This document shows positions 5,291 through 20,985 of a DNA stretch of 64,000 nucleotides, one piece after another. The position numbers and the translations under genes are program-made. This DNA is from Bacteroidaceae bacterium (GTDB taxonomy: Bacteria > Bacteroidota > Bacteroidia > Bacteroidales > Bacteroidaceae): assembly GCA_017408685.1 (NCBI GenBank), contig JAFQUE010000092.1, forward strand, positions 1 through 64,000, read 5' to 3'. The notes beneath the pieces were generated by a model that worked only from the letters and a program-made list of their open reading frames with translations, was not told the origin of the DNA and did not search any database. The stretch's first letter is position 1. Every line of letters begins with the position of its first letter.

Positions 5291-6382
5291 TTATATTAGT
5301 TTTTCTAGCAACTTACCCCATAGTGCAAACGGAGTAGTTGCTTCGCCAGTCACTTTTTTGCCTTCGCGCACCGTAAAGCGCGAAATAATGTCCAACAGGT
5401 AGAGAGTATATTCCTGTTTCTTAATCCATGCCCCCTCCTTGCTGTTCATGAATGCGGTAATCTCCTTTGCACCCCAACCCCTCTCAAAAACGGCAGTTTG
5501 GGTAAAGAAATGGTAACGGTCGAGCCCGGGAGGATAACTCTTGGCGGCATATTCAAAATCGAAGACAAAAAGCATGTTCTTCTCCACGAACATGTTCCAT
5601 GGCGTGAAATCGCCATGATAGGCCGAGAATTCGACCTCACGGCCACTGAATATCTCTTTTATGTTTGCAGCGACCCTGGCAATGACTGCCGGCTCAACAT
5701 TATCGGGTAACCAATCCAGGTGCTTTTCAAGTAAGTCAAGCGTGCGGCAATAATCGCTCTCCTCAAAGCATACAGCCTGTTTGGTTTTTTCGTGAAGCTT
5801 TGCAAGGAACCTTTCCTGCAATGCTCCCCATTCATGTATAACTGCCGATGACCGTGTTTTCACAGTACTCTGTACAAAAATGTGCACGCCGCTATCCAAC
5901 ATGCCGCAATGCAGGACTTGCGGAATACCTTTCATTCCCTTGCTGCCCAACCATGCAAGCATTTTGTTCTCTTTGTCAAAGAGTGCCTTTATATCACTGC
6001 TTGTACTCAACTTGCAGTACCCCAGAATGTGCCTGCCGCTCGACAACTGCATTGTAATCTTGCGGTGCACGCTTGGTGTACCTTCAAAAACACTGAATTC
6101 AACTTCAGTGCCGAACATATTGCACAGCAGTGCGTGTAACTCTTTTCCCAGTGAACAATGCAGCGTTGTGGCATGTATTGCCTTGCGCACCGGGGAAATC
6201 CCGTGCAACATAGGCAACAGCGCCTTAACCATTTTCCCCTTGATACCGCTCGGCTGGTACAGGTTCATTGCTGTGCGCATGTCCCGTGCCGGCATAATCC
6301 AGTACTTGCCGTCACTGTTCCCAAAACGGTAGAATTTCTCTCCGCTTGTGAAGTCAAGGGTTTTATCAAGGATATTTTTCAT
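5291..6382 (-). CDS. APH/choline-kinase-fold phosphotransferase-like protein
   Basis: About 363 residues. The catalytic-loop motif YHGDFTPWNMF (HxDxxxxN) and the metal-binding segment VFDFEYA near residues 255-285 are those of the aminoglycoside-phosphotransferase/choline-kinase fold. The N-terminal lobe is divergent and no clear glycine-rich loop is visible. In this setting, within a capsule operon, the protein may phosphorylate a small molecule or sugar used to decorate the polymer, but it could also be a kinase-fold protein of another use. ATG at 6382 is preferred over the in-frame TTG at 6394. The gene's upstream gap is one of the three octamer-repeat gaps. Confidence 0.7.
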   Translation of the reverse strand: MKNILDKTLDFTSGEKFYRFGNSDGKYWIMPARDMRTAMNLYQPSGIKGKMVKALLPMLHGISPVRKAIHATTLHCSLGKELHALLCNMFGTEVEFSVFEGTPSVHRKITMQLSSGRHILGYCKLSTSSDIKALFDKENKMLAWLGSKGMKGIPQVLHCGMLDSGVHIFVQSTVKTRSSAVIHEWGALQERFLAKLHEKTKQAVCFEESDYCRTLDLLEKHLDWLPDNVEPAVIARVAANIKEIFSGREVEFSAYHGDFTPWNMFVEKNMLFVFDFEYAAKSYPPGLDRYHFFTQTAVFERGWGAKEITAFMNSKEGAWIKKQEYTLYLLDIISRFTVREGKKVTGEATTPFALWGKLLEKLI

Positions 6383-6389
6383 ATTTTTA

Positions 6390-6449
6390 AACAAAAGAAC
6401 ATAAGTACATAAGTTTAATATTGTGCATTTGTACTTCTGTCTTAAATAA
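6390..6449. repeat. Octamer inverted-repeat element A
   Basis: Left arm: three consecutive octamers AACAAAAG, AACATAAG, TACATAAG at 6390-6413. Right arm: CTTCTGTC then TTAAATAA at 6434-6449, in inverted orientation. The stretch 6399-6432 is nearly identical to 14513-14546 in element C. It fills the gap between two capsule genes almost completely. Confidence 0.8.
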
Positions 6450-6450
6450 A

Positions 6451-7686
6451 TTATATCTTGCTCTTCAGCAAATCCCTGTACTCAATGCCGCGGGCTTCCC
6501 AAAGGAACTGCTCGCCGGCATGCTTTGCATTCTCCCCAAGACGCTTGCGTTCCTCCTTACAGGTGAGGCGCTGCATTGCCGTTGACATGTTTGCAATAAC
6601 CTTATCGCGTGAGGTACGCGGTACAATAATTGCATATTCATTGGAGAAGTAGCGTGTGTAGCCTGTGGTGTCAATGCATATCAGAGGTTTGCCCATTGCC
6701 ATTGTGTCAAAAGAAACTGTTACGGCACCCTCCTTGAGCGAAGCGTTCACAACCACATCGGCACGACCAAGCAGACTGTAATATTCTTCCATTGAAACAT
6801 TGCCTGTGAAAGTGACCTGTTCCTGAATCTTCAATCTTTTGACAAATTCCGTCAACCTTACCTTGTCGCTCCCCTTGCCAACAATGGTAAGGTGCAAGCG
6901 GTTGTCGTCCTTTGCTGCACGTGCAAAACTCTCGATTACTAAGTCAAAGCCCCGCCAAGCGTCAAGGCGTCCCACGGTAATGAACTCTATTCTGTTGTTA
7001 TCGGTGTCAAGTGCCGTTACGGCATGCTCGCTCTTTTCAACTGCAACATCGGTAAAAAGCACGCTTTTATCGCGGTATTTTGCCGGTAACAGGTCACGTG
7101 TAATTTCGGTTTTGCAAAGTATGAGGTTGGCATTACGGCAACGCTTTTTCAGTCCAAGGTTTATCGGAAGCATTTTAATAGTTGCGCGGCGCACCCATTC
7201 AATAAGGCGGTTTTTGTGTGCATAATGCTTGCTGTATTCTGCCGGTATGGTCTCGAGGCCGCCCGCCGGGCCCCACACAAAGAACTGCTTTTGCCCGTAT
7301 GAACTTACCTTCCATAGCACGTTGCCGTATGTCAGGTGATGGAACACCTTTATTCCATTCTCGCGCATTGTGCGCTTTACAATGCTGTTGGTGCAGTATT
7401 GCCATATATTGTAATATGTGCGCACACCACGCAATCCCTTCTTCCAGAACCTTGCCCATTTGGGCAGGTCAAAGTAGATGAAATGTATTCCCGCAAATTC
7501 AGGGTGCGCAGCTATCCATGGCTCAATGGTGCCTCGGTTGCTCTCGCGTGTGAGTACCCACAACTCAAAATGCTTCGACATCTCAAGCACCCAGTGCCAC
7601 CCAACGCCAATCTCGCTGCCGAGTCCCGGCTCGCAGGCATAGGCTGAAACAAAGATTTTAAGTTTTTCTTTAACTTCTTTAGACAT
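6451..7686 (-). CDS. GT4 family glycosyltransferase
   Basis: About 411 residues with the GT-B layout. The N-terminal half has IFVSAYACEPGLGSEIGVGWHWV, the pattern common in lipopolysaccharide and capsule GT4 enzymes; the C-terminal half has FITVGRLDAWRGFDLVIESFA and a donor-site segment KEGAVTVSFDTMAMGKPLI. That segment has Asp where the second Glu of EX7E is usual, so the motif reads EX7D. The start ATG at 7686 lies inside a CTTATGTC octamer; the frame is open ten codons further up. The gene is bracketed by octamer elements A and B, as if it were a single-gene module. Confidence 0.86.
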   Translation of the reverse strand: MSKEVKEKLKIFVSAYACEPGLGSEIGVGWHWVLEMSKHFELWVLTRESNRGTIEPWIAAHPEFAGIHFIYFDLPKWARFWKKGLRGVRTYYNIWQYCTNSIVKRTMRENGIKVFHHLTYGNVLWKVSSYGQKQFFVWGPAGGLETIPAEYSKHYAHKNRLIEWVRRATIKMLPINLGLKKRCRNANLILCKTEITRDLLPAKYRDKSVLFTDVAVEKSEHAVTALDTDNNRIEFITVGRLDAWRGFDLVIESFARAAKDDNRLHLTIVGKGSDKVRLTEFVKRLKIQEQVTFTGNVSMEEYYSLLGRADVVVNASLKEGAVTVSFDTMAMGKPLICIDTTGYTRYFSNEYAIIVPRTSRDKVIANMSTAMQRLTCKEERKRLGENAKHAGEQFLWEARGIEYRDLLKSKI

Positions 7687-7703
7687 AAGTCTGATATATT
7701 TTA

Positions 7704-7807
7704 GACATAAGAACATAAACCAGCGTTCCGTTGGTTACATAAGGTTGTATAATATATACAGAAGCAAGTTTGATGTTTGGCAGTATATGTTCTTTTGTCT
7801 TAAATAA
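7704..7807. repeat. Octamer inverted-repeat element B
   Basis: Left arm GACATAAG, AACATAAA at 7704-7719; right arm TATATGTT, CTTTTGTC, TTAAATAA at 7784-7807, inverted relative to the left arm. About 65 nt of unrelated sequence lie between the arms. A further GACATAAG at 7682-7689 covers the start codon of the neighbouring GT4. Confidence 0.75.
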
Positions 7808-7849
7808 TTAAATCATTGCGTGGCTTGACTTCTGTTTAATCTCATGAGC

Positions 7850-8839
7850 CTACGCACCTTTTTGCGGTAGTTTAATCAAATCCTTCTGTGCCACGAACCA
7901 TGGAATCAGTTTTTTGCATACAGGAATGCATGCGGCCGATAGCAGCAATGTTATTATTGCAATGCTCCAGTTGCTACTCAATATCTCAATCCCTGTCTTG
8001 GGCAAGAGAACCATTAGCGGGCGATATATCATGTGGTGTACGCAGAGCAGGACAATGGAGTATCGACCGCAGTATGATACAAATGGAACATGTTTAATAG
8101 TCTTGCATAGGAACAATATCGCAAGCACAGAAGTAATGCTTATAAAGTATGTGCTCCAACCTTCCAAACCATTGTAATGCAGCGAAAGACGGTAATCGGT
8201 TGTAATGGTAAGAATATATGCAATACCCCAGAATGCCATTGCAAACAGGATGTTGTATCTGTCATATCTGTTGGGATAAAGAATGTCACTCTTTTTCAAA
8301 TAGTAACCGAATGCAAAGAATGGCAGCGCTGTGAATGCCACATCAATGAACAGAGGAATGAAAATACCACTCCTTCCTAAACATACTCCTGACACTCCCA
8401 ATGCAATCACGGTTATTATGCGTAGCCATTCTCTTTTTATGTGTATGGTTATCTGACAGAAGATGATGTTGCACCAGAAAAGACACAGCAGAAACCATAT
8501 CGGTCCATTGAAGAATTGTCTGTTGTTGAATACATCAAGAATACCTCCTGCTCTTGTTATCAGAAGCTGCGGTGCAAGAAACTTTATTCCGTAGTATGCC
8601 ATGCACCCAAGCAGGTAAAAGAATATAAAGGGAATAAGTATCTTGTTTGTCTTTCTTATAAAGAAATTATACCCGCCGCCATAGTCTTTGAAGAATAATC
8701 CTGAAAGGATAAAATAAAGGGGCATCCTGACAATCTCAAGTCCTGGCAGGTTAATTCTTGCGCCACAATGCCCTAAAACAACAAGAATTATACAGATACC
8801 TTTTGCAAGGTCTATGAACTCTATTCTTTTTTGTGACAT
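7850..8839 (-). CDS. Membrane acyltransferase, family 3 (OafA/NodX type)
   Basis: About 329 residues with roughly ten hydrophobic segments. The N-terminus RIEFIDLAKGICIILVVLGHCG has the family's catalytic histidine at the end of the first transmembrane helix, and the end of the protein is a short basic tail. Members of this family move acetyl or other acyl groups across the inner membrane onto polysaccharide sugars. The ATG at 8839 is chosen because it gives the standard N-terminus and avoids overlapping the preceding gene's stop at 8844. One of two acyltransferases in the operon, so the polymer is probably acylated at two sites. Confidence 0.87.
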   Translation of the reverse strand: MSQKRIEFIDLAKGICIILVVLGHCGARINLPGLEIVRMPLYFILSGLFFKDYGGGYNFFIRKTNKILIPFIFFYLLGCMAYYGIKFLAPQLLITRAGGILDVFNNRQFFNGPIWFLLCLFWCNIIFCQITIHIKREWLRIITVIALGVSGVCLGRSGIFIPLFIDVAFTALPFFAFGYYLKKSDILYPNRYDRYNILFAMAFWGIAYILTITTDYRLSLHYNGLEGWSTYFISITSVLAILFLCKTIKHVPFVSYCGRYSIVLLCVHHMIYRPLMVLLPKTGIEILSSNWSIAIITLLLSAACIPVCKKLIPWFVAQKDLIKLPQKGA

Positions 8840-8843
8840 GTTG

Positions 8844-9860
8844 TTACTTGTTGTGTTTAAAATTCCTTGCTGTTTGTTTTCGGTGTACATATCTTGCCAT
8901 TCTAAAAACAGGTACAAGGCAGTTACTTGCTATTGCAAAAAGTGTAGGATGTTTGGTTGCAAATTTTACAAGACTGTATTGTGAATTTTTGTATTTAACG
9001 TAACCAATAATCTCTTTCTTTGTCTTAATTGAAGAAAATAGTCCAAACAGGTATGAGATAGTACGGTTATAATAACTGTCGGCTAAGTTTATTGCTGATT
9101 GATAGTTTGGGGAGTTCTTATATAGAGTTTCTGCATGTCCTAAAACTCTGTTTGCTGCTTCAATGTTGTCGATTAAGGTTGTTTTGTTCTTGTACATAGT
9201 ATCGCTGGTGCCACTCTCTCCCTTGATATAATGTACCAATAGAGTTGGTTGATATTGTATTTTCTTTACGTAGAACATCATTCTTACCCCCCAGTCAACA
9301 TCTTCTACCCTAGTACCTTCGACAAATTCTATTCTGTTCTTGTTGTAGAAGTCTCTATCGAAGCATAAACGCCATGGTGCAATGGCAAATCCATTTCTCT
9401 GTATGAATGTCTCACCGTCAGTTTTTTCTCGGTATGGTAGATTTAATTGAAGATTGTCATGTGGGTGTCCTTTGAATTGGTATGCCGAATCGCTTACAAG
9501 AATTTCAAGGTCACTATCTTGCAATATCTCATAAATTTTTGCAATACTATTCTCATGGAAGTAATCATCAGAATCTATGAATAAGATATATTTGCCTTTT
9601 GCAATTCTTACCCCCTTGTTCCTGCTTGCCCCTTGACGTATATTTGTTTCATTCTTAATGATTCTTAGGTTACTGCGTGCTTGTTGTTGCTCCTGTAAGT
9701 ACTTATATGTGTTGTCGGTGCTACAATCGTCAATACATATGACCTCATACAGGTTCTTGTCAAGTGGTTGTTGCCAAATACTCTCAAGGCATATCGGAAG
9801 GTCGTTGGTTACTCCATTGTATACCGGAATTATAATTGAGAAGAATGGTCTTTCTATCAT
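8844..9860 (-). CDS. GT2 family glycosyltransferase
   Basis: Inverting GT-A enzyme of 338 residues. The N-terminal strand SIIIPVYNG (8-16), the nucleotide-binding IDDCSTDN (43-50), and the metal-binding DSDD (96-99) are all intact, and an ED pair (VEDVDWGVRM, about residue 184) may supply the catalytic base. It ends in a basic segment. The gene is 1 nt away from the kinase-fusion gene upstream, so the two are translationally coupled. Donor and acceptor unknown. Confidence 0.9.
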   Translation of the reverse strand: MIERPFFSIIIPVYNGVTNDLPICLESIWQQPLDKNLYEVICIDDCSTDNTYKYLQEQQQARSNLRIIKNETNIRQGASRNKGVRIAKGKYILFIDSDDYFHENSIAKIYEILQDSDLEILVSDSAYQFKGHPHDNLQLNLPYREKTDGETFIQRNGFAIAPWRLCFDRDFYNKNRIEFVEGTRVEDVDWGVRMMFYVKKIQYQPTLLVHYIKGESGTSDTMYKNKTTLIDNIEAANRVLGHAETLYKNSPNYQSAINLADSYYNRTISYLFGLFSSIKTKKEIIGYVKYKNSQYSLVKFATKHPTLFAIASNCLVPVFRMARYVHRKQTARNFKHNK

Positions 9861-9861
9861 A

Positions 9862-11181
9862 TTATTTCAGTCTTTTCAGATTCTTTCTGTGTTGCTCACT
9901 GAATACATGGTTCAGTATCTCGTACACTGCTGCCTGTGGGGTTGTTTCATTAAGAACCTTAGTGTACCCCTTTTTGCCTGCGAGGTAATCTATCTTCGCA
10001 TTGATTGTGTTTATACCCTCTTCATCTAGTTCCCGCTTGCGGGCAAGGATGGTCTCGCTGCTTGCTGTGAGCAGTATATTGTAGTCAAGCGATGGAATAA
10101 ATAGTTTACCCCACCAATATAGGAACTTGGGGCTCAGATAAATCCTCGAGCGGCGGCTGTCACATATTATATCGGTAAAATAGCGGTCAAAGACAACCAC
10201 GCGCGTAATGCGTGTGACTGACTTTACCTTGACAAAGTAGCCTATTATATAGTCAATGGAGTAGTAGCAAAGGCGCAGTAATGAACTCAACTTGCCTGTC
10301 TTGCCGCCGCGGTGCGGGTCGCTGTAGTTACGGTCGACTTCCTTCTTTATTCCTGCCGAGTGTGCCACTTCGCCCAGGTTACCGAAGAGGGCTGGGCGGA
10401 AGTGATAGTATTTGTGTGCGGTCTTGAACACAGGTGCAATGCGCTCGAGTATGGTGTCGATGACTGTTGTCTTGCCGCTACCGTCGGGCCCTGTAAAACC
10501 TATACTGAAACCTGTGCGTGAACACAGGTAGTTGCCAATGAATGTATAAAGGAAATGCAATATGCTTACGACCAAACCAAAAGGCCTGCGTTTAAGGTTG
10601 CTCCACAGTGCTTTTAAGAGGAGTTTTTTACCGCGCCTTTTCTCGCATTCCTCAACAGAACGGCAACCGAATATCTGCTTCAGTTTCCTTTTTACTATCT
10701 TGCTGTTCTCGGCAGCCTCCTTAGTCGCCCTGTACTTCTCGGGATATTTACTGCCTACTGCGTTGTTGTAAAGTATCTTGTCCAGGAATTGGCACTCAAT
10801 ACCAACGTAGTAGAGAAAACCATTGAACTGCTTGTACCCAAGGAACTCCTCGGCGCTCATCAACTGCACGCCCCACACCGATGTGTCAAAGAAAAAGTCC
10901 CACTGTACAATCTCGGTTTTCTCCTTGCTGGTTGCCGCGCAGACATAAGTGATTAAACGGTCGCTGTTGAGGTATGTGATGATATTCCAACCGCTGCGGT
11001 CAATGAGTTCAATAAGTGCTTTCTTTATTTTCTTGTAACTCTGGCGCGTGATTATGATGTCGATGTCGCGGCTGTTGTTTTTGTCGGGCAGTCCCTCAAA
11101 GTTACGCAACACGGCATAATCGGCATTCTCGTTCAAGAAACCGATTATTACTTTTATATGTTCTGTAGTATTGTTTGACAT
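9862..11181 (-). CDS. Nucleotidyltransferase-like / thymidylate-kinase-like fusion protein
   Basis: A 439-residue two-part protein. Residues 1-150 resemble an uncharacterised nucleotidyltransferase-fold module (YAVLRNFEGLPDKNN, then RDIDIII with the Asp-x-Asp pair expected to hold metal). A basic linker and a hydrophobic stretch follow. From about residue 225 there is a P-loop NTPase: GFTGPDGSGKTT, then VVFDRYFTDI (the DRY motif of thymidylate-kinase-like proteins) and a lid-like ARKRELDEEG. Its position, 1 nt from a GT2 in the capsule operon, suggests sugar or alditol phosphorylation and transfer rather than dTMP synthesis, but that is inference; no substrate can be assigned. Confidence 0.72.
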   Translation of the reverse strand: MSNNTTEHIKVIIGFLNENADYAVLRNFEGLPDKNNSRDIDIIITRQSYKKIKKALIELIDRSGWNIITYLNSDRLITYVCAATSKEKTEIVQWDFFFDTSVWGVQLMSAEEFLGYKQFNGFLYYVGIECQFLDKILYNNAVGSKYPEKYRATKEAAENSKIVKRKLKQIFGCRSVEECEKRRGKKLLLKALWSNLKRRPFGLVVSILHFLYTFIGNYLCSRTGFSIGFTGPDGSGKTTVIDTILERIAPVFKTAHKYYHFRPALFGNLGEVAHSAGIKKEVDRNYSDPHRGGKTGKLSSLLRLCYYSIDYIIGYFVKVKSVTRITRVVVFDRYFTDIICDSRRSRIYLSPKFLYWWGKLFIPSLDYNILLTASSETILARKRELDEEGINTINAKIDYLAGKKGYTKVLNETTPQAAVYEILNHVFSEQHRKNLKRLK

Positions 11182-11203
11182 AAGTATACCTTTTTGGTAT
11201 TTC

Positions 11204-12175
11204 TTATTTCTTTTTGATGAAGTTATGCCTCAGTTTGTCAAAAATGTAACCCGGGCGGTAATATATTGATTTCATTATTTCCCAGGCCCCCTTGAATATA
11301 TTTTTGCGTTTCAGGTAGAACACTCCATTGCGCAAGGAGTCGGCTGCCTTTGCGTCATTTTTAAGTTTTTTCAGTTCTTTATCCGATAGTGAATTATAGA
11401 ACTCAATGAATGTTAGTTCTTTTTTGCCATCCCTGCGTAGCAGAAGGTTGCGCTTGGTGTAGCGCATTTTTATTATCATGTTAAATGAATTTGAGGAGAG
11501 TCCATTGCCAATTTTCCTATACTTGCACAGTACCTCGGGGACTACAATAATTGCCTTACCATCCTTGTAAAGGTCGCTCATGCGTGTCCACAAGTCAAGG
11601 TCCTCGCAATAATCCTGATAGCGTGGCTTTCCTTCGGGATAACCGTCTATTATATAACCGCCAACTGATAGAGCGAGTGCTCTGTCATATATTGCAGTCG
11701 GTTGCATGAATATGAGTTTCTTGTTTGCCGCCTTCTTGTAGAATCTTTCTTTTGTTGTTTCCCCCAAGAAAATACCGCCGCCAATCTTTTTGCTCTTTTC
11801 ATTTACATATTCAAGATAGCAGCCCACAGCCATCAAGTCTTTGTCGCTTTTTATTTTGCGGTACATTGTCTCAATGGCATTGGGGTACAATATGTCATCG
11901 GCATCATGAAACATCATGTATTTTGTTGTTGCCTTGCGCTCGGCAAAATGTCTTGCATAGCCAATGCCGTGGTTTTCTTCGAAATTGACTATTTCATACT
12001 GCCTTGGGTGTAGTGTAAAGAACTCTTCAATGACGGCAATGCTGTCGTCGGTGCTGCAATCGTTGACAATGAGCAGGTAAAAATCCTGCATTGTCTGGGC
12101 AATGACACTTTTAAGAGTTTCTTTTATGTATTTCTCTGCATTGTACATGCAGATTGCAAGAGTGAGGTCCTTCAT
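11204..12175 (-). CDS. GT2 family glycosyltransferase
   Basis: A 323-residue GT-A enzyme: LAICMYNAEKYI (6-17), VNDCSTDD (37-44), and DADD (91-94) as the metal-binding motif, followed by a conserved EDLDLW region near residue 200 that fits the catalytic-base ED motif. The C-terminal part is strongly basic (KKLKNDAKAADS, RKNIFKGAW), as in membrane-surface GT2s. It lies between the polymerase gene and the kinase-fusion gene with short gaps. Specificity unknown. Confidence 0.9.
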   Translation of the reverse strand: MKDLTLAICMYNAEKYIKETLKSVIAQTMQDFYLLIVNDCSTDDSIAVIEEFFTLHPRQYEIVNFEENHGIGYARHFAERKATTKYMMFHDADDILYPNAIETMYRKIKSDKDLMAVGCYLEYVNEKSKKIGGGIFLGETTKERFYKKAANKKLIFMQPTAIYDRALALSVGGYIIDGYPEGKPRYQDYCEDLDLWTRMSDLYKDGKAIIVVPEVLCKYRKIGNGLSSNSFNMIIKMRYTKRNLLLRRDGKKELTFIEFYNSLSDKELKKLKNDAKAADSLRNGVFYLKRKNIFKGAWEIMKSIYYRPGYIFDKLRHNFIKKK

Positions 12176-12209
12176 AAATTATACTTCAATAGTATGCTGT
12201 TCTGCATTA

Positions 12210-13433
12210 CTACCGTTCTACAGGAGTGGGCAGAGGTGAGACTTCTTCTTCCTCGTAAATCTCAGGGTTATAACGGTTCTTGTAAAAATACTTCACACAT
12301 GTCATAACCATCATAAGTGCCCATAAATATTGAACATTTCCACCAGCTCCGCCGCCGACTCCGGCAAACATAAATATAGTACCAAGTGACCAGAAATTAT
12401 ATGCACACGAAAAGCACAATATTAGTGATATAATATAGTGTATAAAACCGTAATCATGGAACATTGTTCTATTATACTTGTCCTTTATGCCCGAATCAAT
12501 ACCATATCCAAACCATGTTTCTTTTTTGGTGAAATCTGCGGTCAGTGAATTTAATAATGGGGTAATACGTGCCGAAGCAGAACCATCATTTTCAATTACA
12601 GCATCTTTGTCAAACGTCGTGGTTGCTTCAATTGTACTGGTCGCTCTGTCGAGCTGCTCAATTCCTAATTCTTGTATAAGACCATAGCAAATAATAAGCA
12701 TTGGGATTATGTAGTACCAGTTATGCCAGCGTACAAAATAGAGTGAGAATAGTATAAGACAAACGAATGCAGTTCCACTACCCATTGTGAGCATCATCCA
12801 AAGGAAACGTATTGTAACCCATTTATGTTCTCCGCTGAAAAGTTCGCTCAATGTAAATGGACCTTCATCGCGTTTGTATTCGCAGCACTTTATATATGCA
12901 TAATAGAAAACAAGCATAAAACGCCCAAAGGTACTCGGTTCCATTGATAAGGACTGACAACCCAATCCGCGGTCAAGGTTTGTCATCATGTTGAATAGAG
13001 GGAAGTATCCTATTCCCATGAGTGTAAGCACCTGTTGTATTATACAAACAACAAAGTACAACATCATGAACCATTTGCATATGTTTATGAAATGGTCTAT
13101 TGTGAAGACCTTTTCAATGAATATAAGGTTATAGAAACTGACGTATGTTAGTACAAGCAAAATAGAGTATATGTATGTACTCCAACGGAAACTCTCGGGA
13201 TGGAAACTTGCAACAATATATTGATAAAGAAGATAAATGACGCCAATGAGCACAGCCTTGGATGCTTTGAACGAGTAAAAGAACATAACTACGATGGAGG
13301 ATACCATCAATGTCATCTTTATCGGCGCGTTCATGCCGAAAGAGTCCACAGGCATGTAATATATGCCGTAGAATATAATCAGTATCGTTGCAAAGAGTGT
13401 AAGGCCTTTCTGCCCTTTGAATATATCAAACAT
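12210..13433 (-). CDS. wzy: Wzy-like polysaccharide polymerase (O-antigen ligase/polymerase type)
   Basis: About 407 residues with ten or more hydrophobic helices and one long hydrophilic loop near residues 270-330 (ERATSTIEATTTFDKDAV-like region, then TWFGYGIDSG), which fits the periplasmic loop of Wzy proteins. It is the only polytopic protein in the operon of this type, and flippase and chain-length proteins are present, so the assignment rests on topology and context; Wzy sequences are poorly conserved. ATG at 13433 avoids overlap with the upstream gene; a start at 13454 would overlap its stop by 11 nt. Ends in an acidic, proline-containing tail. Confidence 0.75.
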   Translation of the reverse strand: MFDIFKGQKGLTLFATILIIFYGIYYMPVDSFGMNAPIKMTLMVSSIVVMFFYSFKASKAVLIGVIYLLYQYIVASFHPESFRWSTYIYSILLVLTYVSFYNLIFIEKVFTIDHFINICKWFMMLYFVVCIIQQVLTLMGIGYFPLFNMMTNLDRGLGCQSLSMEPSTFGRFMLVFYYAYIKCCEYKRDEGPFTLSELFSGEHKWVTIRFLWMMLTMGSGTAFVCLILFSLYFVRWHNWYYIIPMLIICYGLIQELGIEQLDRATSTIEATTTFDKDAVIENDGSASARITPLLNSLTADFTKKETWFGYGIDSGIKDKYNRTMFHDYGFIHYIISLILCFSCAYNFWSLGTIFMFAGVGGGAGGNVQYLWALMMVMTCVKYFYKNRYNPEIYEEEEVSPLPTPVER

Positions 13434-13443
13434 CGTTTTTGTT

Positions 13444-14454
13444 CTATTTACCAATCATGAATTTTAGTTTCCCATTGAACAGATTGACCAATGGGTAAGT
13501 AAGCAGTATGCATACTGCAAAATATAGTATTGTAACAGGTCCTTCAAAAACAGGGTGGTGCAACACATATTTGTCAAAAGCCATAAGTATCTCCATTGTT
13601 ATGCTGAAGTGTGTGCACATGAGTATGAGTGAGTTTACCCCCCAGAACGTAAAGAATCTTGTTATGATACTTTTCGAGAATGCTGTAAATATGCACATGA
13701 ATGCAATGGCAGGCAGTGTGTTGCAAAGCAGTCCATTGATGTAGTAAATGCTGAATGGCGGTGCTGCAACAAGTATAATGCTTATACCCAACAGCACAAC
13801 TGCTATAGTAAACAACATAACCTTGTTTGCTTTAGGTATACTATGTCCCCATCTTTTGGCAATGATGTACCCCAGAGCAACGATGGGCCACGCATATAAT
13901 CCTCTTACAATAGTCTGCATGGGTGCGTCAATCAATTTGTTAAGTTCACTCAACTCACGCATTGGCAACCATAAGTTGTTATATGTATAATTTGCAGCCA
14001 ATGTTATTGCCATGAATATTGCAGCAATCAGCCATTTCCTTTTGTTGCTCCTCACAACAGCAAATATGTATTCTCCAATTATCAGTACAGGCAAGAACCA
14101 CAATGTTCCAATGCCACGTAAAACGATGGTCTTATATATATCGCGTAAAAGTATTCCGCTATCCATTAAACCAAACAGGACCCAAAGAACATCAAAGAGA
14201 ATAACGAGCAGGCTGAACCAAAGATAAGGGATTCCTAACTGTTTTATTCTCTTTTTAAGCAGTTCATTCGGTTTTACCGCCCTGTCATTTATACCGCTCA
14301 CCCAACCCGATGTAAAGTAGAATGTACTTATCATGAACATCCCAATCCACGTGTTCAGCCACGCCGGAATAACCCCTTTTTCAAAATGTAGGAATGTTAT
14401 GCATAGTATTGCAATGCCCTTTGTGGCGTCAATATAATCTAATCTTTTGGTCAT
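13444..14454 (-). CDS. Membrane acyltransferase, family 3
   Basis: A 336-residue polytopic protein whose N-terminus KRLDYIDATKGIAILCITFLHFEKG carries the family histidine at the end of the first helix. Roughly ten transmembrane segments follow. Same family as the gene at 7850-8839 but clearly different in sequence, so it probably acylates a different position of the repeat unit. Its start is 50 nt from octamer element C. Confidence 0.87.
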   Translation of the reverse strand: MTKRLDYIDATKGIAILCITFLHFEKGVIPAWLNTWIGMFMISTFYFTSGWVSGINDRAVKPNELLKKRIKQLGIPYLWFSLLVILFDVLWVLFGLMDSGILLRDIYKTIVLRGIGTLWFLPVLIIGEYIFAVVRSNKRKWLIAAIFMAITLAANYTYNNLWLPMRELSELNKLIDAPMQTIVRGLYAWPIVALGYIIAKRWGHSIPKANKVMLFTIAVVLLGISIILVAAPPFSIYYINGLLCNTLPAIAFMCIFTAFSKSIITRFFTFWGVNSLILMCTHFSITMEILMAFDKYVLHHPVFEGPVTILYFAVCILLTYPLVNLFNGKLKFMIGK

Positions 14455-14503
14455 TCTTTAATGTTTCTTAAAATATATCTAACATTATTCTGTTATATTT
14501 TTA

Positions 14504-14707
14504 GACATAAGGACATAAGTACATAAGTTTAATATTGCGCATTTGTATGGAACTTTTCAACAATTTTATTGTTGTAATGCACCTTGTGCATTTGGATAAA
14601 CATATTAGAAAAGCCTTGTATGCAATTGCTTGTATACAATGATTTTCAAATATGTTTATCATTCAGTTCCTTAATATCCATAAGTGAGTTTCTTTTGTTC
14701 TTCTGTC
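14504..14707. repeat. Octamer inverted-repeat element C, with inner inverted repeat
   Basis: Left arm: three octamers GACATAAG, GACATAAG, TACATAAG at 14504-14527. Right arm: CTTTTGTT, CTTCTGTC at 14692-14707, inverted. Between them, 14595-14606 and 14649-14660 form a perfect 12-bp inverted repeat (GATAAACATATT / AATATGTTTATC) with a 42-nt spacer, and CAACAA/TTGTTG arms form a small hairpin near 14559-14575. The left part (14513-14546) repeats element A. The 255-nt gap holds no gene. Confidence 0.8.
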
Positions 14708-14709
14708 TA

Positions 14710-19965: not shown

Positions 19966-20985
19966 TCAGAATCTTATTCTTTTAAATTGCTTGTTATAAA
20001 TTCTTGACGCAGCATATGGGTATCCGCTGTTCCACATTTTGCCTGTTTGTAGAAGATATATTTTTTCGGCATTGGCTATCATGAAAAAGTCGAGGAATGT
20101 TTTCTCGTGTGTTTCATAGTTGTTGTCAACATCTTTTGCGTCAACATGTGTGATGTTTCCTTTAATTGTGTACACATATTGCAGCTCTGTGGCGCGTTGT
20201 AGGAAAGTTTTGCTGTCGGAGTTTACAAGAATCGTTTGCTGGGGGTGTCTTTTGTGTAATTGCTTTATTTGTTGTATACATTTGGATATCATAGTTTCCT
20301 TTTCCTCGTTTGATTGTATTACACCTACTCCGGCAGTTTCATTGAAATCTCCAAGCAGGTTCATGAAGCGGAATGAAGTGCTGATATAGGAGTTGCCAAG
20401 TTTAGCCTTGATTCTGTTTATAGATATTTGTAATCTTGGTGATAACTTGAATAGTTCATGAAAGTACTCTGAATAATTCCCGTTGTATGAGAAGTGGGCA
20501 TTGGTTCTCACATGGAATTCCTTATATGGCTTGTTAAATTCTTCTTCAAAGAATTTTCTTTGCCTTACCCCTTCCGCATTATTGCCTTTGTGGGTGTTTA
20601 TGTAGCATATGTCTGTAACGCTTGTGTTATAGTTCAGTTCATCATCTGATATTTGCCAGTTCACAACATTGGGCAAGAGAAACTGGCTTAATTCAAAGGG
20701 GGAGTTGAATATCAACTTGAAATCCATTCCTTTACGCTTGCATATTTCGTATGTAGAAACTATTCCACGCAACCGGTCGGCAAGTCCATTGCTGCTGATT
20801 TTATTATCATATATGCACACAGCACGTTTTTTGCATTCAATTATCGGGCGGTGAGGACCATATTCTTCCATTGGGATGATTTTCCCGTTTTTGAAGTCGT
20901 GGTTCTTTTTTAACACTTCTCTCCAATAGAGGAATTTGTGTTCAATATTGAATCGTATATTCTTTAATAGTAGTTTTAATGGCAT
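19966..20985 (-). CDS. Fucosyltransferase-superfamily-like glycosyltransferase
   Basis: A 339-residue protein. The motif SSNGLADRLRGIVSTYE (64-80) resembles the glycine-rich, donor-binding start of NodZ/alpha-1,2-fucosyltransferase and protein O-fucosyltransferase-like enzymes. A middle segment TILVNSDSKTFLQRA and an end segment DFFMIANAEKIYLLQTG followed by SGYPYAASRI match the usual order of that superfamily's later motifs. The donor may be GDP-fucose, but no fucose pathway gene is in the window. The gene lies 3 nt from the CpsB-type phosphatase and 22 nt from wzx. Confidence 0.68.
   Translation of the reverse strand: MPLKLLLKNIRFNIEHKFLYWREVLKKNHDFKNGKIIPMEEYGPHRPIIECKKRAVCIYDNKISSNGLADRLRGIVSTYEICKRKGMDFKLIFNSPFELSQFLLPNVVNWQISDDELNYNTSVTDICYINTHKGNNAEGVRQRKFFEEEFNKPYKEFHVRTNAHFSYNGNYSEYFHELFKLSPRLQISINRIKAKLGNSYISTSFRFMNLLGDFNETAGVGVIQSNEEKETMISKCIQQIKQLHKRHPQQTILVNSDSKTFLQRATELQYVYTIKGNITHVDAKDVDNNYETHEKTFLDFFMIANAEKIYLLQTGKMWNSGYPYAASRIYNKQFKRIRF

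Follow-up and report, generated by a model that had tools for sequence, protein, structure and literature searches.

The window, a stretch of 64,000 nt from Bacteroidaceae bacterium GCA_017408685.1 (contig JAFQUE010000092.1, positions 1 to 64,000, forward strand), contains a capsule operon in which three gaps between genes hold arrays of the octamer ACANAAGN. The gene families flanking these gaps are glycosyltransferases, acyltransferases, and an APH-like protein. Element A (6381..6450, minus strand) is the minimal form, placed between the stop of the GT4 gene and the start of the APH-like gene; its arms span 6389-6413 and 6434-6442, and direct reading locates three octamers on the left (6391, 6399, and 6407) and one, CTTCTGT, on the right (6434). 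Element B (7690..7849, minus strand), with arms at 7703-7719 and 7792-7802, separates the GT4 gene from an acyltransferase gene. Its octamers, also read directly, begin at 7705 and 7713 on the left, the latter mismatched, and at 7792 (CTTTTGT) on the right; single octamers are found in its core at 7737 and 7758, and the gap has two extra ones, CTTCTGT at 7829 and CTTATGT at 7683..7689 (minus strand). By reading, the ATG of this CTTATGT is the likely start codon of GT4 (ATG TCT AAA), and an arm octamer of gap B thereby appears to supply the start of the next gene. In one relative (G024), GT4 starts within the octamer as it does here, and in three others (G005, G037, and G043) it starts otherwise. 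Element C occupies 14503-14708 of the third gap (14455..14709, minus strand), with octamers read directly at 14505, 14513, and 14521 on the left and at 14692 and 14700 on the right. Its core contains a long hairpin (14595..14660, minus strand) with 31-nt arms that are 87% complementary, and the predicted structure of the whole consists of an outer octamer stem, an inner stem, and three hairpins.

The first-pass annotation of this DNA had claimed that the three gaps, and no others in the operon, have this architecture, which is confirmed by the counts. Octamers occur in three of the 18 gene junctions between 3012 and 24926 (a number that includes three overlaps and one junction without any gap). 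The doublet ACATAAGNACATAAG has six matches with up to 2 mismatches in the 64-kb window, when 0.61 are expected, and ACAKAAGNACADAAG has seven with up to 1 mismatch, when 0.13 are expected (0 of 100 shuffles); all matches to both patterns fall within the three gaps. The inverted arms it described were found, but a right arm of several octamers holds for C only, where two are exact; in A and in B it is a single octamer. A and C are nearly identical over 53 nt (92%), compared with the 34 nt given earlier, and the greater length of C between the arms, claimed as about 150 nt, comes to about 145 nt. When all elements are compared with each other, the cores of A and C match at 93% across 43 nt and their flanks do not match. 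Outside the octamer gaps, the window also has a perfect 24-nt inverted repeat with a 1-nt spacer at 2948-2996.

Anatomy and predicted folding of the elements

Each element is an imperfect palindrome, with ends formed by inverted arrays of ACANAAGN that follow a T-rich tract of about TTTWRGAC. Reading inward, the ends have the form of about TTTWRGACANAAGNACANAAG, a consensus set by eye from 20 elements whose column counts mix two registers; inverted octamer arms and T-rich outer ends are present in all 20 elements tabulated. The core between the arms is hairpin-rich and variable, and among 28 elements the size ranges from 54 to 359 nt. Because some elements coincide in part with short ORF predictions (60-124 aa), the non-coding nature of every copy is not proven. 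Arms without a partner also occur, C69 and G041_C34 being among the examples. In two genomes, one-sided arms lie downstream of one MATE gene, beside a DUF3791 gene in that of the window (G000:C69; L211 3067-3466) and beside an AAA_14/DUF4143 ATPase gene in the second (G041:C34; L235 3015-4862); in a third (G004, L246), octamers are absent from the 420 bases read beside this gene.

Octamer position 4 mostly differs between the two arms of an element in this genus, one arm having T and its partner G or A. In 13 inverted pairs read by hand among the genus matches listed, the paired letters agree in 4 of 31 cases, when the permutation mean is 39% (p 0.006). An earlier permutation test (5/40 letters agreeing in the genus, 59/136 in other contigs) was biased by the use of a T-only pattern to find the arms. 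Outside the genus, the mismatch does not hold as a rule: 20 of 56 pairs found with the T-only pattern are T-rich on both arms. Relative to C, the C60-type copies have their arm types exchanged around a core of unchanged orientation, for which reason an invertible segment was considered.

Strong folding is predicted for most copies. The median folding z for 28 elements is -5.9 on one strand and -4.95 on the other, compared with -0.25 for 25 random control windows from the same loci, one of which reached -6.5. The first-pass annotation had named RNA structures as one possibility for the repeats. On the transcript strand, strong folding is predicted for B and C (z -3.6 and -5.0) but not for A (z -0.5), and small elements like A are in general not unusual in their folding. 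C and the C60-type elements have one common predicted branched fold, in which an inner stem surrounds three hairpins. In the alignment of five sequences, of which three are closely similar, 14 of 46 pairs of this fold have at least one sequence changed on both sides with pairing kept. The covariance model of the C/C60-type core matches six of the 44 genus genomes, that is, the four source genomes and two weak ones. At the gathering score, Rfam 15 reports nothing but a tRNA in the window; the seven matches with E up to 1 that it gives in six loci all score far below their gathering thresholds.

As the elements are recurrent and mostly foldable, an RNA-structure role is possible on these predictions, and a selected function could lie behind the structure-preserving changes and the uniform order of the arms at those capsule sites that were read. 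One explanation of this kind is that the elements are selected RNA punctuation, meaning intercistronic hairpins that would stabilise, process, or attenuate the long capsule and surface-protein mRNAs. The strong folding of B and C on the transcript strand, the paired changes that preserve the fold common to C and the C60 type, and the tight fit of the elements from stop codon to start codon are in line with it. However, the two strands fold about equally well, the folding of A is no better than that of shuffles, and, judged by eye at the sites read, the arms stand in opposite order with respect to transcription at capsule and surface-protein loci. The element is also missing in relatives with the same neighbouring genes, and the gaps have no terminator-like site: a search for intrinsic terminators (a GC stem and then a T-run) found 12 sites between 5200 and 16500, none of them in the three gaps. 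Taken together, RNA punctuation seems an unlikely primary explanation. Promoters of the Bacteroides type have the consensus TTTG/TAnnTTTG. This pattern has ten exact matches in the window against 2.2 expected, 20251-20284 among them, and none in the three octamer gaps, so neither a terminator nor a promoter of this type was retained as their content. A sigma-70-like pattern has three matches in gap C; the count for the region is 35 compared with 30.1 in shuffles, and the three matches thus reflect the background rate.

Distribution of the octamers and comparison of cores with flanks

The octamer elements are not peculiar to the capsule operon, as the same arms are found at other loci of the same genome (C34, C60, and C69 of G000) and in other genomes. 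C60 carries the element twice, as inverted copies near both contig ends (G000:C60:3219-3421 and 139338-139540); the neighbour gene is inverted along with the element, and either the contig contains a long inverted repeat or it is misassembled. The strict doublet ACATAAGNACATAAG occurs in 11 of 44 same-genus genomes. The looser pattern ACANAAGNACANAAG has 188 matches in these 44 genomes, compared with 17 for the reversed control pattern, and at least one match, chance matches included, in 32 of them. Among the genomes of 84,980 species, the strict triple pattern was found in 83 stretches. Of the 80 stretches listed, 69 have titles from Bacteroidales and 11 do not (for instance, Marinicella, Xenorhabdus, Moritella, and Clostridium), and some genomes contribute many stretches to this tally. 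Three contigs of the viral collection IMG/VR (L136, L137, and L138) also hold the triple octamer, in L136 as an inverted pair. Only two of 393 genomes drawn from the order, G000 included, have the strict triple pattern, which indicates that the octamer family is sporadic. Mobile repeats tend to such a distribution.

The motif is also found in other arrangements. Head-to-tail arrays of octamer doublets or triplets are present in other Bacteroidales (L120 4544-5248, L075 1-343, L100 569-920, and L118 3636-3794), with periods of about 49, 41, and 28 nt, and look like array expansion of the same motif. CRISPR-like arrays were considered and rejected for L120 and L075, whose sequences are tandem repeats that lack unique spacers; L100 and L118 are known from octamer positions alone. 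GC-rich concentric octamer palindromes, nested several shells deep, lie at 820-1114 and 3995-4471 of L067 (Prevotellamassilia timonensis), and about four similar octamer-armed units stand in tandem beside an apparent gene end at 3206-3630 of L086 (Bacteroides mediterraneensis).

To compare the elements with their surroundings, 28 elements and their flanks, from one genome per species, were set all against all, with core matches of at least 35 nt and flank matches of at least 60 nt. Some elements are alike in both core and flank, as orthologues would be (e.g., G000_C60, G005_C78, G020_C21, and G022_C42). Others dissociate, and they do so both ways: like elements stand in unlike places, and one gene junction holds different cores or none. 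Similar elements without a flank match are G022_C2 and G041_C17 (97.7% over 220 nt, with a partial flank comparison as both lie near contig ends), G041_C1 and C18a (89% over 219 nt), G005_C190 and G036_3 (88.6% over 185 nt), element C of the window and gap A of G007 (94% over 68 nt and 95% over 44 nt), and element B and gap A of G020 (83% over 89 nt). Conversely, the pairs G000_C/G024_C13a, G000_A/G037_A, and G000_A/G020_A have like flanks and no core match of at least 35 nt. Gap A has a short element in G000, a C-like one in G007, a minimal one in G043, and a further type in G037 and G020 (83% over 175 nt between both), and no element in G002 and G023. In gap B, G000 has an element, G024 has a gap of about 60 nt that contains one octamer, and the genes abut in G005 and G037. 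In gap C, G000 and G024 have elements with different cores and G023 has none. G002, G005, G023, and G037 each have octamer doublets elsewhere.

These comparisons bear on the earlier suggestion that the repeats frame cassettes, according to which the arms would be recombination sites at cassette borders, as substrates or scars of modular capsule-gene exchange. Gene content between species does vary at gaps A, B, and C as well, the arms downstream of the one MATE gene adjoin different accessory genes in two genomes, and elements often seem to adjoin capsule genes or large, apparently secreted proteins. In 15 GT4 loci, own genome included, octamer doublets lie between GT4 and the APH-like gene in five; in four, the two genes are within 400 nt of each other without doublets; in another four, about 1 kb of other DNA separates them, again without a doublet; and in two, the APH-like gene is out of reach. 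The extra DNA at junction A thus comes without doublets (4/15), the doublets come with five plain adjacencies, and elements occur away from capsule loci too. As gene content at junction A changes without doublets, and octamers come and go without a change of genes, the reading of the repeats as cassette borders or scars is not supported and appears improbable. If the repeats are a dispersed family as proposed below, caution is advisable in interpreting them as capsule-cassette borders. A weaker link to exchange is possible, since gene content varies at these gaps. The neighbours of the other elements include a MATE transporter and proteins that, by eye, seem to be secreted, among others (44 flanking proteins were scanned with Pfam, several of them without a match), and an enrichment of elements near surface genes is at most an impression.

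Possible spread of the elements and related repeat families

The explanation that best accommodates these data, to which we give a probability of roughly 0.7, is that the elements in the three gaps belong to a non-coding, dispersed family of MITE/REP-like repeats, with inverted ACANAAGN arrays and a variable hairpin core. In this model, the copies would spread as non-autonomous units, either moved in trans by some machinery or copied by recombination between dispersed copies, and the arms would be the part that is recognised or the part that pairs. The core may be exchanged, or may collapse by deletion, and A looks like a collapsed C-type copy. Copies lying between the cistrons of the capsule operon would be tolerated there and would give the mRNA additional hairpins. 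If this is correct, then Bacteroidales carry a mobile-like palindrome family with iterated-octamer ends and with cores that differ or are exchanged at fixed sites, which would help to explain species differences in the intergenic gaps of capsule and surface-protein loci; the inverted-pair ACANAAGN arrays could then serve as a search handle for the moving machinery.

Candidates for this machinery were sought in several ways. The RAYT transposase Y1 (PF01797) gave no match in G000, a genome that is 86% complete; it is present in five of the 44 genus genomes and in one of the 11 with the strict doublet (G022). Transposition by RAYT/Y1 is thus unsupported in the genus, Y1 being absent from G000 and from 10 of the 11 strict-doublet genomes. 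A transposase, or a parent transposon beside the arms, was not recognised by eye in the nine recurrent protein clusters common to at least three loci (546 ORFs, L053-L138), and the genes enclosed by two long arm pairs (L057 and L131) seemed ordinary on visual inspection. No target-site duplication was evident by eye in 20 flank pairs. With no transposase, Y1, or target duplication found, copying by recombination is an equally open mechanism. It might also be considered that the arms are a recognition array for a protein by which hairpin DNA with interchangeable cores is copied or moved, in a system unrelated to Y1/RAYT and to DDE MITEs; this seems doubtful. In some viral inverted terminal repeats, the stem contains tandem short repeats and its tip small palindromes. 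The replicating or transposing branched-hairpin element proposed here has a loose analogy to them.

In the literature, no description of the octamer sequence or of like repeats was found, by a search that sequences given only in figures or split would escape. The kind, dispersed palindromic repeats, is known, and the family is a variant of it that is spread over several Bacteroidales lineages. The nearest Bacteroidales element found described is the BrickBuilt MITE of Porphyromonas gingivalis, with TIRs of about 12 nt such as GAGACCTTTGCA, like those of ISPg1/ISPg9, with 23-nt internal repeats, and with TSDs in three of the four copies that have both TIRs (PMC4596501). Both it and the octamer repeats are dispersed non-coding elements of Bacteroidales with inverted termini, tandem direct repeats, and predicted long stem-loops, and without their own transposase. 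In contrast to BrickBuilt as described there, the repeats of the octamer elements are 8 nt long and are themselves the termini, the core is variable, and no TSD was seen. With REP, BIME, and REPIN sequences (PMC3733652), they have in common that they are short, intergenic, imperfect palindromes with many copies and mismatched stems; they differ from REP/REPIN with RAYT in that Y1 was not found in G000 or in 10 of the 11 strict-doublet genomes.

Nearest by place among those found is the 77-bp inverted repeat of the P. gingivalis capsule operon, in which a stem with 77-bp arms lies near the 5' end and an antisense RNA is present (PMC3969353; PMC8757827; for P. gingivalis repeats also PMC5771137). 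Unlike this repeat, as portrayed there, the octamer arrays form several small elements between internal genes and are dispersed beyond capsule loci. That the arms are binding arrays for a DNA-structure protein (e.g., HU) regulating capsule transcription, as was proposed for the 77-bp repeat, is very improbable: the tandem octamers have regular palindrome mismatches (4/31 letters agreeing, p 0.006; 13 pairs among the matches listed), and the HU protein PG0121 is described in PMC3969353 as preferring the bulged DNA of the 77-bp repeat, but binding is putative here, the elements lie inside the operon rather than at its 5' end and also elsewhere in the genome, and outside the genus 20/56 pairs are T-rich on both arms (T-only pattern).

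Small proteins recur near octamer arms in three loci (L072, L100, and L102) and in one locus of the genus (L240 3145-3603), possibly by chance; by eye, they resemble DUF559 or Vsr-type nucleases.
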